The notes beneath the pieces are model-generated. The model was given only the letters and a program-made list of their open reading frames with translations. It was not told the origin of the DNA and did no database searches. Of a stretch of 64,000 nucleotides of DNA, positions 12,890 through 17,482 are shown piece after piece. Origin of the DNA: Rhizobium sp. Q54 (GTDB lineage Bacteria > Pseudomonadota > Alphaproteobacteria > UBA828); the NCBI GenBank assembly GCA_945892755.1, contig CAMDDO010000001.1, positions 1 to 64,000 of the forward strand, read 5' to 3'. Numbering within the stretch: position 1 is the first letter of the stretch; each line of letters starts with the position of its first letter. The translations under genes were made by a program, and so were the position numbers.

Positions 12890-14092
12890 ATGCCCGCCGC
12901 AAAGCCCGTCAAGAAGGTCGTGCTCGCCTATTCGGGCGGGCTCGACACCTCGGTCATTCTGGTTTGGCTGAAAGAGACCTATGGCTGCGAGGTGGTGACC
13001 TTCACCGCCGATCTCGGCCAGGGCGAGGAGCTCGAGCCGGCACGCGCAAAGGCGCAGATGTTCGGCGTCAAGCAGATCTTCATCGAGGATCTGCGCGAGG
13101 AGTTCGTGCGCGACTTCGTGTTTCCGATGTTCCGCGCCAACGCGATCTATGAAGGGACCTATTTGCTCGGCACCTCGATCGCCCGGCCCTTGATCGCCAA
13201 GCGCCAGATCGAGATCGCGCAGGCGACCGGTGCCGACGCGGTGGCTCATGGCGCGACCGGCAAGGGCAATGACCAGGTCCGCTTCGAGCTGACCTATTAC
13301 GCGCTGAAGCCGGATATTCGCGTCATCGCGCCGTGGCGCGAATGGGCGCTGAACTCGCGCACCGCTCTGCTCGATTATGCCGAGAAACATCAAATCCCGA
13401 TCGCGCGCGACAAGCGCGGCGAGCCGCCCTATTCGACCGACGCCAATCTTTTGCACATCTCCTATGAAGGCAAGGCGCTCGAAGATCCGTGGCAGGAACC
13501 ATCGGCCGACATGTTCACCCGCTCGGTCGCGCCCGAAGAGGCGCCCAATAAGCCGACCTATGTCGAGATCGAATTCGAGCAGGGCGACCCGGTCGCGGTG
13601 AACGGTGAGAAATTATCACCCGCAAGACTACTCACGAGGCTGAACGAGCTTGGCGGCGCCAACGGCATTGGCCGGCTTGATTTGGTCGAGAACCGCTTCG
13701 TCGGCATGAAATCACGCGGCGTCTATGAAACGCCGGGCGGCACGATTTTGTTCGCGGCGCGGCGCGCGGTTGAGAGTCTCACCCTCGATCGCGGTGCTAT
13801 GCACCTGAAAGACGAACTCATGCCGCGCTATGCCGAGCTGATCTATAACGGCTTCTGGTTTGCGCCTGAGCGCGAAATGCTCCAGGCGCTGATCGACGAG
13901 AGCCAGAAGACCGTCACCGGCACGGCGCGCCTCAAGCTCTATCGCGGGTCCGCCATGGTGGTCGGGCGCAAATCGCCGATGAGCCTTTATAAGCAAGACC
14001 TCGTCACCTTCGAGGCCGACACTGTCTACAACCAGCGCGACGCGGAAGGCTTCATCAAGCTGAACGCGCTGAGATTGCGATTGAGGAAATGA
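12890..14092 (+). CDS. argG: Argininosuccinate synthase
   Basis: Joins citrulline and aspartate with ATP to form argininosuccinate in arginine synthesis. It is 400 residues, the normal size. The N-terminal ATP pyrophosphatase loop is [10 protein letters not shown], and the substrate segments [19 protein letters not shown] and [13 protein letters not shown] are intact. The ATG at 12890 has GGAG upstream and begins [17 protein letters not shown]. The frame upstream overlaps the small membrane gene and is not used. It is followed by a perfect 12-bp-arm hairpin repeat that could also act as a transcription stop. Confidence 0.97.
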
Positions 14093-14095
14093 CCT

Positions 14096-14157
14096 CCCTT
14101 CCTCCCCAGAAGGGGAGGAAGGGCAGGGGATGGTGGGGCGAAAATCGAGCGGCCGAC
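14096..14157 (+). repeat. Palindromic interspersed repeat, copy A (stem-loop plus tail)
   Basis: A perfect 12-bp stem (CCCTTCCTCCCC / GGGGAGGAAGGG, loop AGAA, 14096-14123) is followed by a G-rich tail starting CAGGGGATGGTGGGGCG. The stem and tail match copy B at 14791-14849 read in the opposite direction. The stem sequences differ, but each is fully self-complementary. It lies immediately after argG. Confidence 0.8.
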
Positions 14158-14166
14158 AGCCGCTAT

Positions 14167-14194
14167 TTGACGTGAGGAATGCCCCATAGATAAT
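14167..14194 (+). promoter_or_regulatory. Sigma70-type promoter for the GIY-YIG gene
   Basis: TTGACG at 14167-14172 and GATAAT at 14189-14194 are separated by 16 bp, and each matches the consensus at five of six positions. It is by eye one of the two strongest sigma70 promoters in the window. It lies 75 bp before the GIY-YIG start codon. Confidence 0.65.
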
Positions 14195-14269
14195 TCTCTG
14201 CTATTTCCGCGTATCGATAGCCCGCGACGAAGACATCGATAAAAATGGCATCAACACGCGGGGAGCCTC

Positions 14270-14764
14270 ATGGGTGGTAGGCTGTTCTTGAAGCGAATCG
14301 AGAGTCTTGCTCGAAGCCTCTTCGAAAAGCGATGGATGCCGCTTGACCAAGCGTTTTCGGGCTCTTCTCTGAAAATGCCAGGTATTTACGCACTCGCCTA
14401 TTCCGACCAGATGCTGTCTGGACGACGGGTTAGCATGAAGGACATCTTCTACATCGGTATGTCGAATTCGGCCGGCGGAGTAAAACAGCGCCTCAAGCAA
14501 TTCCGAGCGGGAATCGAAAGCGGTACTGGGCATTCTGGAGGCAACCGATTCTTTCGAGACTATTCGCATAGCGCGCCGTTTTCGAAGGTTCAGTCCGGAA
14601 AGAAGTTTTACGTCGTAACGGTCATGCTTGAGTGCAGCACTCAGAAACTGAGTCGCAACTCGGAGGACCTCCGGCAAATGGGACATATCGCGTGTATGGA
14701 GTATTACGCACTTGCGCTCGTTCGCGATCAGATGGGCATGGAACCGAAATTGAACAAGCGCTGA
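14270..14764 (+). CDS. GIY-YIG domain protein, probable nuclease
   Basis: A 164-residue protein with a GIY-YIG-type core. GIYALAY is near residues 38-44 and FYIGMS is near 60-65. They are followed by a basic segment (GGVKQRLKQFRAG) where the catalytic Arg is expected, and a late MEYYALALV segment where the metal-binding Glu would sit. A C-terminal Asn (EPKLNKR) matches the usual final conserved residue. I infer a DNA-cleaving or DNA-binding role; the biological target is unknown. GGGGAG lies six bases before the ATG. The gene has its own promoter, lower GC content by eye than its neighbours, and inverted copies of one palindromic repeat on both sides. Together these suggest recent acquisition as a cassette. 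Confidence 0.75.
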   Translation: MGGRLFLKRIESLARSLFEKRWMPLDQAFSGSSLKMPGIYALAYSDQMLSGRRVSMKDIFYIGMSNSAGGVKQRLKQFRAGIESGTGHSGGNRFFRDYSHSAPFSKVQSGKKFYVVTVMLECSTQKLSRNSEDLRQMGHIACMEYYALALVRDQMGMEPKLNKR

Positions 14765-14790
14765 TCGAGTTCGCTGGCCAACCGGGCTCC

Positions 14791-14849
14791 GTCCGCTTTC
14801 ATTTCGACCCACCTCCCCTTGCCCCTCCGCCCTCTCCAGGGCGGAGGGG
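14791..14849 (-). repeat. Palindromic interspersed repeat, copy B (inverted relative to copy A)
   Basis: A perfect 12-bp stem (CCCCTCCGCCCT / AGGGCGGAGGGG, loop CTCC, 14822-14849). Read on the minus strand the tail is CAAGGGGAGGTGGGTCGAAA, clearly homologous to the tail of copy A. It ends five bases from the stop codon of the dimethylformamidase-like gene, where it may also work as a bidirectional stop. Confidence 0.8.
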
Positions 14850-14853
14850 TATT

Positions 14854-17103
14854 TCAGCGCGCGAACGGTTCCGGGTTCAAAAACCTTCGCACCACGTTCT
14901 CGGTGATTCGCGACACGTTGTTCTGGCAATCATTCCAGATCATCGAGCCGGCCCAGGCGATCGAGCCGGTCGAGAACACCGCGCCGCCATGATTGGTTTC
15001 GAAAAACGCGAGATCGGCGCGGATCGCGGCGTTCTCCGGCCCGCTTGTGCCCGGGTAATTGAAAAATAAATCCTCGGCGACGAGAACATAGGTGTCGGTG
15101 TGATTCTCTGATGAGGCGAGATTGAGCACATGCGGGGGCGAGCCGTAATAGGCATCGACCCGGTCGATTTCGAGCCCGGCCGCGCCGCCGCCGATATAGC
15201 CGAAATCGCCGATCGTCTCATCCTTGCCGATTCCGGCGAAAATCCATGACGCGCGCGGGTTGAAGCTGTCGGGATTGCGTTTATAAGGGCTCGACACATC
15301 GAGCCCGTGGCTGGCGAAGCCGACACCCGTGATCACATTCGGCCCGGTCTTTGCTTGGCGCCGCCAAAGCCCGCCATATTCGCCGGTGAAACCCATATAG
15401 CTTTCGCCGTTCAAGGGCTCCCAAGCGCGGCTGCCGCCCTCGGCGCGGCGCACCTCGATCACACCGGGCAATTCCTGGTGATAGGCGATGCGCCAATAAA
15501 AGCCGTTGCCGCCGAGATAGATCAGACGCCCGCCCGTCTGCGTGAACGTCTCAACCGCGTCATACATGGTCTTTGAAAAATACTCCGGGTGGCTGCCGGT
15601 CATGATCACGTCATAGGGGCGGAGCGCCTCGATCCCCTCCGCGTGCAAATCATCGTCGGTGATCACGTCATAGTCGAAGCCGAGGCGCGTCAGCCAATGA
15701 AGGATGTGGGTATCGGCATTGAACTGCCAAATCTGCGACCCCGCGCCGCCATTCACGCTTTGCACGCGCGGGCGCATGTTCAACAACGGTCTCAAGCGTG
15801 ACGAGGTCGCGACGCCCGTGCCATCCGAGTGATAGTCATAGAGCGAGTGGCCATACTCGCGATGCTCGTTCAAGAAGATCGCGTGCGGGAACAGCTCGAC
15901 CGCACGTCCGATCAAAGGTTCGATCAACCAGACATTGGTCGCGAAATGCTCATTGCCATAGGCCATGTAGCTCGCGGACGGAAACAGGAAGACGAGCTTT
16001 TTCTCCCGGCCTTTTGGGGCACGTACGACGAAGGGAATGTATTCGACATCGTCACCGGCGCGGAGCCTTGCGGCATAAACGCCGCTCGGCAGATCGTCCG
16101 GCACGGTGAACGAAAAATCGACATCCCATTCCGCGTCATAGATGTCGTCGTCATGAAAATGAATCGCACCATAGTCATCGGGCGCATGGCGCCAGCACAT
16201 TTCCGCGCCGCTCCAAGTCCAACCGGTAACGCCGCGCAAGGGCAGATTGACGCATTCGCCGTCCAACCAGTTCGCCGAACCATCGCGCACACGCGTTCCG
16301 GTAATGTCGGCGGCGAAATCCCACGCCGCCACAACGTCAGTCGCGAGCGATGGCGGCAAAGCGCGGGCGCGCAGCGTCTCCATCTCGCCCCGACCAAGCG
16401 CACGGCGGCAGAGGCGCGGGCCATCGATCTTGCCATTGTAATGCGCGCCGAACAAAGCGCGTCCGCCGGCCCGCTCCCCGTCATGCCAGGCCGCCATGAC
16501 GAGCGGCCCCTCGATCGCGCTCGGGCGCAGCGCGACGACCGATTCCGCCGTGCCGCGATCGTCGATCGTCGGATAGGCATCGCGCGGCTCCTGATAAACG
16601 CGCACCTGACCGGTCGCGCCGTCATAGCTTGCCGCAACGAAATACCATTGCCGGGCAAGCATGGGTTTACTGGTGCTGATGGTCTCGACCCGCGTGCCAT
16701 CACCAAGCCGGAGTGCGACGCTGCCCGTGTCATCGATCATGAGCGCGAAACCGGCCTCGCGCTGGTTGTCCCATCTGGTGATCAGCCCTTGGGCGCCCTT
16801 GCCCGGCGTGGTCGGCCAAATCTGTGCCTGGAGGCTGAAGCTCGACAGTGCGCCCAAAGCCGGGCCGTGCGGCACCATGACGCAGGAGCCGGCATGGATG
16901 ACCTGTTCGCGTCCCGAAAACGTTCGGTTTATCGCGCTTTCGATCACCGGCTCGACCAGGCCCGGCCCAGTTGGATTGACGTCGCCCTGAACCACCCGCA
17001 CCAGCTCGGCGCGGTATTCGGGCGCCACGCAGTTGACATAGAAGCGGATCGTCCCGCCCGCTCGAACACTAATCTGGTCGCTGTAGCCGGTGATCTTGAG
17101 CAT
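14854..17103 (-). CDS. N,N-dimethylformamidase-like large (beta) subunit
   Basis: Resembles DmfA2, the iron-dependent catalytic subunit that hydrolyses N,N-dimethylformamide to dimethylamine and formate. It is 749 residues, near the usual size. Residues 85-240 form a LamG/concanavalin-like sandwich (SLQAQIWPTT, RQWYFVAASYDG). The C-terminal catalytic domain begins near 370. Candidate 2-Tyr/1-carboxylate iron ligands are Tyr382 (SYMAYGNEH), Tyr424 (YDYHSDG) and Glu507, next to His505 (GSHPEYFS). The start at 17103 (MLKITGYSDQ) is preceded by GGGGAAG. The small alpha subunit usually found beside it is not in the window, and the real substrate may be another amide. Confidence 0.8.
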   Translation of the reverse strand: MLKITGYSDQISVRAGGTIRFYVNCVAPEYRAELVRVVQGDVNPTGPGLVEPVIESAINRTFSGREQVIHAGSCVMVPHGPALGALSSFSLQAQIWPTTPGKGAQGLITRWDNQREAGFALMIDDTGSVALRLGDGTRVETISTSKPMLARQWYFVAASYDGATGQVRVYQEPRDAYPTIDDRGTAESVVALRPSAIEGPLVMAAWHDGERAGGRALFGAHYNGKIDGPRLCRRALGRGEMETLRARALPPSLATDVVAAWDFAADITGTRVRDGSANWLDGECVNLPLRGVTGWTWSGAEMCWRHAPDDYGAIHFHDDDIYDAEWDVDFSFTVPDDLPSGVYAARLRAGDDVEYIPFVVRAPKGREKKLVFLFPSASYMAYGNEHFATNVWLIEPLIGRAVELFPHAIFLNEHREYGHSLYDYHSDGTGVATSSRLRPLLNMRPRVQSVNGGAGSQIWQFNADTHILHWLTRLGFDYDVITDDDLHAEGIEALRPYDVIMTGSHPEYFSKTMYDAVETFTQTGGRLIYLGGNGFYWRIAYHQELPGVIEVRRAEGGSRAWEPLNGESYMGFTGEYGGLWRRQAKTGPNVITGVGFASHGLDVSSPYKRNPDSFNPRASWIFAGIGKDETIGDFGYIGGGAAGLEIDRVDAYYGSPPHVLNLASSENHTDTYVLVAEDLFFNYPGTSGPENAAIRADLAFFETNHGGAVFSTGSIAWAGSMIWNDCQNNVSRITENVVRRFLNPEPFAR

Positions 17104-17482
17104 GGTCTTCCCCCGTCGCGCCGCGCTAATTCCGCCGTCGCCGGTCGCCACGATGGCAAAGCCGTGGCGGCGCGGTCAAATCGGCGTGCGCGAGGGTCTG
17201 AACGCGCGCGCCAAGGCTTGGTTCGGGCGGCGACCTGTCGCATAGTTGGGCCGACGGTTCGCGGGGCGATACGGAGCGCCGTGCACCGGCTTGACCAAGC
17301 TCGGCAAGTTCGCGGTCATCGCGCGGCCCAATACAGACATGACGCAGATGAGAAGTATCCCGGTCTGGTGGGATCGGCGGCGGCGGAGAGATTGCGCCAC
17401 GCACGGGGCATGGAATCCAATTCCGCTTGGTCGAGGCACGTTCTAAGGATAGCGATATCGCGGCACGGAAGAGGGACATGGC
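17104..17482. other. Divergent intergenic region (379 bp)
   Basis: Lies between the dimethylformamidase-like and Rieske oxygenase genes, which are transcribed away from each other. It must carry both promoters. I found no convincing -35/-10 pair and no gene; the short plus-strand frame 17246-17446 has no recognisable product. Confidence 0.4.

Follow-up and report, generated by a model that had tools for sequence, protein, structure and literature searches.

Locus organization and the enclosed gene

The window, i.e. the whole 64-kb stretch of DNA analyzed here, is part of the 100% complete genome denoted G000, and two congeners, G001 (an incomplete genome) and G002, are used for comparison. 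At the locus of interest a small nuclease-like gene and two copies of a palindromic repeat, A and B, are located between two convergent genes, argG and a gene for an N,N-dimethylformamidase beta-subunit-like protein (DMF-like gene). The features are listed below with the evidence for each.

12890..14092, + strand: argG (argininosuccinate synthase), upstream convergent neighbour; ORF, family-wide identity
14094..14142, + strand: repeat copy A, stem 14096-14123, then G-rich tail; perfect inverted repeat
14167..14194, + strand: promoter-like TTGACG-16-GATAAT, preceding the nuclease gene; by consensus match only
14270..14764, + strand: GIY-YIG nuclease-like gene, 164 aa; motifs, alignment, AlphaFold topology, GC
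14803..14851, - strand: repeat copy B, tail 14803-14821 on the side of the nuclease gene, stem 14822-14849
14854..17151, - strand: DMF-like gene, downstream convergent neighbour; PF20254, Pfam E 1e-97

Both neighbours are well conserved: across 16 family genomes argG is 71-94% identical over its C-terminal 201 aa, and the DMF-like gene has a counterpart at the same place in G002 with 85% identity over 447 aa. Copy A starts directly after the stop codon of argG (distance 1 bp) and copy B directly after that of the DMF-like gene (2 bp). The first-pass annotation had described the enclosed gene as promoter-bearing; the hexamers named above are indeed found upstream of it, but as a consensus match with 0.4 such sites expected by chance in the region they represent a candidate promoter.

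The annotation had further assigned a GIY-YIG domain to the gene and noted its low GC content, and both observations hold. The 164-residue ORF harbors all motifs in the expected order, namely PGIY (residues 37-40), YIG (61-63), R74, E144 and N162, and these are kept in three full-length close homologues except for I/V changes within GIY and YIG. The same order of GIY, YIG, R, E and N is characteristic of the GIY-YIG superfamily (PF01541; UvrC, YhbQ, I-TevI, EndoII). An hhalign alignment to the GIY-YIG domains of UvrC/YhbQ proteins from the same genome family places GIY, YIG and R in register, with an E-value of 5.6e-4 for one comparison but a probability of 30%. The AlphaFold model (pLDDT 88.9, calculated from a four-row alignment) depicts the element order strand-strand-helix-helix-strand-helix expected for the superfamily, with E144 in the last long helix. 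Foldseek gave no significant fold match for the model in the PDB; EndoII, an intron endonuclease and a GIY-YIG protein are among its best-ranked matches to viral models, none of them at E<=0.001. Direct searches with the protein in Pfam, NCBIfam, PADLOC, PHROGs and PDB returned nothing significant. In contrast to the known superfamily members, the protein is thus not recognized by the Pfam, NCBIfam and PADLOC models, and together with its own homologues it contains an insertion between GIY and YIG and a GHS(G/A)G motif. On motif grounds we take it as a divergent GIY-YIG nuclease. Assignment as a defence or phage gene was considered and rejected, PADLOC and PHROGs giving no significant match; a homologue search in phage records and viral contigs found none.

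With 52.1% GC as opposed to 64.7% for the window, the gene marks the minimum among all 495-bp stretches. Its homologues, found at 27-46% identity, comprise a truncated copy on Bradyrhizobium septentrionale plasmids, one class-level relative (G080), two Nanoarchaeota MAGs, one alphaproteobacterial MAG and a partial copy in one Kiritimatiellaeota MAG. The gene family occurs in just 2 of 385 genomes of the class, G000 included, and is absent from G001, G002 and the other genomes of the family. Neighbours of the homologues are a UvrD/PD-(D/E)XK protein together with an Eco57I-type enzyme (locus L067), type I restriction genes (L008) and a YhcG nuclease (L069). Since some homologues adjoin such restriction-type genes, a restriction-like or selfish role is the likeliest for the predicted nuclease activity.

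The plasmid-borne homologue in Bradyrhizobium septentrionale (L008 6001-6276) is unannotated and truncated, with 46% identity over 92 aa. It overlaps the end of an annotated MT-A70 methyltransferase gene on the opposite strand and adjoins, besides the type I restriction genes, an IS3-like element.

A dispersed family of G-rich hairpins

The two repeats have the properties ascribed to them by the annotation: perfect 12-bp stems, homologous G-rich tails and opposite orientation. The stem arms of copy A (14096-14107/14112-14123) and copy B (14822-14833/14838-14849) are 100% complementary over 12 bp with a loop of 4, and in a scan of all 64 kb for perfect stems (9 bp or more, loops of 3-7) they are the longest. 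Read as its reverse complement, B aligns with A from the stem through the tail (CAGGGGATGGTGGGGCGAA versus CAAGGGGAGGTGGGTCGAA), and the two elements are positioned 660 bp apart with their tails pointing inward. Both match the covariance model described below very well (E 5e-10 for A and 6e-10 for B). The inverted flank score of the GIY-YIG gene is 13, a value reached by none of the 58 other genes in the window and by 4 of 106 genes from repeat-bearing loci. The gene is more strongly bracketed by inverted flanks than ordinary genes are. No Rfam family matches the region. A function as intrinsic terminator is not supported, as neither stem is followed by a T-run.

The repeat is by no means confined to this locus. 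The palindrome pattern is found at 24 sites per strand in G000, some of them overlapping, versus 0 in a reversed control. A covariance model built from ten copies (cut-off E<=0.01) yields 31 matches for G000, 90 for G002 and 20 for G001, which is incomplete. A few palindromes were counted twice, once on each strand, and the number of distinct matches in G000 is 29. A blastn search of plasmids with copy A gave no match. The GIY-YIG gene in turn occurs once in G000, and as the repeat is dispersed while the gene is single, the repeats are not tied to the gene.

Single copies show a preference for the 3' ends of same-strand genes. Among 39 intergenic single copies from the three congeneric genomes, 29 have their stem side facing the stop codon of a same-strand gene (binomial p=0.003), and in 24 of these 29 that stop codon is no more than 31 bp from the stem; the gene calls were made by a simple codon-usage script, hence individual cases may be off. 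As argG and the DMF-like gene are convergent, repeats following their 3' ends are automatically inverted with tails inward, and no cassette is required.

Close doublets are present as well. In G000 these mostly have their tails outward at a spacing of 16-35 bp, while in G002 both outward and inward pairs are observed, the close inward doublets being 23-69 bp apart without a gene inside. G000 doublets of a related subfamily with a CCCTCCCCCTTG stem (L076, L080-L082 and L089, on contigs 11, 43, 74, 58 and 82) are arranged head to head at a distance of 20-33 bp, their tails pointing outward, a geometry opposite to that of A and B. In L035 and L037 (G000 contig 1 at 91357 and contig 7 at 63227) a second hairpin, CGCAAACGCATGCGCTTGCG, is located between stem and tail, which makes these copies a modular variant of the repeat element; in the related subfamily other inserts are seen, GCGCGAAGCGCC and CCCGTCACGAAGTGACGGG (L047, L041).

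The inverted pair had been likened to REP doublets. Like REP sequences of the RAYT-associated GTAG/CGTC type, the A/B repeat is a short intergenic palindrome present in many copies, singly and in head-to-head or tail-to-tail pairs. The GTAG and CGTC families of REP carry their tag at the foot of the stem (PMC3733652), whereas the A/B repeat has neither tag and instead combines a 12-bp stem with a long G-rich tail. Furthermore, a Y1_Tnp (PF01797) search of the complete G000 genome found no match while controls were detected. A RAYT-driven REP origin was rejected on both counts.

The gene-free junction and the homologous loci

In G002 the same convergent argG/DMF-like pair encloses a gap of about 150 bp without the GIY-YIG gene (L050), i.e. 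an insert-free junction of the kind the annotation had proposed to look for. Copy B is retained there at the same place and in the same orientation, with stem and loop identical, and a short fragment resembling the left arm of A follows argG; alignments between the G000 and G002 gaps are reliable at the B end alone. The spacer of the G002 junction also holds CGTCATGGCCCGGCTTGACCGGCCCATCCA, a 9-bp stem with one mismatch, a loop of 5 and the tail CCA, which by its sequence would fit the CGTC-tagged REP type of PMC3733652.

Comparison of about 70 elements shows copy B to be closest to its G002 orthologue (score 39) rather than to A (22), and copy A to be closest to an element elsewhere in G001 (33). 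Since B is kept at the gene-free junction and is most similar to that orthologue, it is to be regarded as part of the site, not of the gene. For copy A a judgement carries less certainty than for B, as G002 has a fragment only. In G001 a different gene follows argG, and the polarity of gain or loss is consequently unrooted.

A mobile cassette is expected to take both ends along from an empty site, to have ends that are each other's closest copies, and to share these ends with homologous units. Here, G002 retains B, A and B each have closer relatives than one another, and the homologues of the gene lack such flanks: a search with the repeat model at six homologue loci gave no match, and no inverted flanks were found at four of the GIY-YIG homologue loci. 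None of the GIY-YIG homologues tested is thus flanked by the A/B repeat, and many intergenic regions without the gene contain it. Taken together, these observations speak against the proposal that the unit moves or persists as a cassette. That the nuclease recognizes the repeat, as was also suggested, appears unsupported from sequence comparison, given homologues without repeats and widespread repeats without the gene.

We also considered, and rejected, an association between the repeat and other GIY-YIG genes found in the family, because among 11 PF01541 loci matches near E=0.01 are present at L159 only. At this locus (1950-2106; G000 contig 12 near 22850) weak repeat-model matches are located about 230 bp from a YhbQ-like GIY-YIG gene, a proximity that is probably a coincidence. 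The other ten loci have no repeat-model match at E 0.1 or better.

The simpler option offered in the annotation, an acquired gene that landed between common intergenic repeats, is the part of its interpretation that stands, while cassette and repeat recognition do not. We consider it likely that the locus represents a solitary GIY-YIG nuclease gene of sporadic occurrence that was acquired and lies between two common 3'-end repeats. The gene would encode a small stand-alone endonuclease of a rare and patchy family, and it probably arrived horizontally in the gap between the convergent argG and DMF-like genes. Its foreign character is indicated by the window-minimum GC, the 2 of 385 class genomes and the relatives in Nanoarchaeota and other MAGs; we infer horizontal transfer, and gain in G000 rather than loss in G002. 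A and B are members of the dispersed G-rich hairpin family, whose copies typically start a few bases past stop codons with the stem first and the tail after, so that convergent host genes give opposite-facing elements with inward tails between which the acquired gene now lies. The hairpins may serve in mRNA 3'-end protection or insulation. Three observations count against this explanation, namely that copy A in G002 is a fragment, that polarity is unrooted, and that G000 contains a second bracketed nuclease gene, described in the following.

Bracketed DUF559 genes and alternative readings

The sole other strong inward pair enclosing a gene in G000 brackets a DUF559 nuclease gene (PF04480, Vsr-like PD-(D/E)XK):

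contig 44, 24175-24621 (= L151 1676-2122): DUF559 gene in G000, inward repeat pair

DUF559 loci (among them L151, L169-L180, L182, L183 and L188-L190) were sampled from the family (eleven) and from plasmid records (ten), with a flank score of at least 18 as cut-off. By this measure the flanks are mutually inverted at 11 of 21 loci as compared to 1 of 194 control genes. The bracketed loci include Azospirillum, Sphingomonas, Novosphingobium, Qipengyuania and Deinococcus; for one of the 11, L172, another repeat forms the inverted flank. The GIY-YIG bracket with its score of 13 falls below the DUF559 brackets (at least 18). The two cases have in common a small nuclease gene between inward copies of the same repeat family; they differ in that the nuclease families are unrelated and that DUF559 genes, unlike the GIY-YIG homologues, are bracketed repeatedly. 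An association of DUF559 with inverted repeats was not found in the open-access literature mentioning DUF559, as represented mainly by titles and abstracts.

The C-terminus of the G000 DUF559 ORF runs into the repeat (TPPTLTLPLKGGG). Downstream of it (L151 2361-2940), between ribE-like and ribD-like genes, two small ORFs are found that resemble a putative toxin-antitoxin pair of the HigB/HigA type.

If the bracketing of the GIY-YIG gene is accidental, a second nuclease bracket in the same genome is an awkward coincidence, and the inward-bracketed DUF559 genes of the family lend the cassette idea some support, although we regard it as unlikely. It would imply that the inward repeats are the ends of a unit whose movement or maintenance is aided by the nuclease, as may hold for the DUF559 genes; the geometry at both is identical, the inverted flank similarity lies above that of all 58 other window genes, and the frequency of DUF559 bracketing exceeds that of the controls. 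Against such a unit stand copy B at the orthologous site without the gene, the fact that A and B are not mutually closest copies, the GIY-YIG homologues without such flanks, and the presence of one gene among dozens of repeats. A wider version, which we put forward as a slightly more doubtful conjecture still, holds that inward G-rich palindromes delimit small nuclease genes of unrelated folds (DUF559 across many lineages, GIY-YIG at this locus) and that these nucleases act on or spread the repeats. If true, this would amount to a transposase-free equivalent of the RAYT/REP system, and the GIY-YIG unit would represent a nuclease swap inside an existing repeat bracket.

Alternatively, the nuclease gene might home into repeat doublets, with the hairpin as cleavage target and the repeats staying in place. 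The gene-free close inward doublets of G002, 23-69 bp apart, could be such targets, and the first GIY-YIG domains to be identified were those of homing endonucleases (PMC1564403). Yet the homologues occupy sites without such repeats, there is a single insertion despite dozens of repeats, and a length of 164 aa would be too short to accommodate an additional DNA-binding domain like that of I-TevI; this reading is accordingly very improbable. Least probable of all, and barely credible, is that the gene is old in the genus and was deleted in G002 and G001: the G002 gap is rearranged, with the A fragment adjoining an unrelated REP-like element, but the GC content of the gene is far below that of the genome and the gene is absent from all other genomes of the family, and in any case an ancestral gene is a question of timing and would not make the repeats parts of a cassette.

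The preferred reading, an acquired gene between 3'-end repeats, illustrates how an apparent inverted-repeat 'cassette' can come about without mobility, from repeats that follow the 3' ends of convergent genes. For a partnership between nuclease and repeat, DUF559 is a better candidate than the GIY-YIG gene and merits a study of its own. The gene itself adds to the GIY-YIG superfamily what we take to be a divergent, patchily distributed family that is missed by Pfam, NCBIfam and PADLOC.
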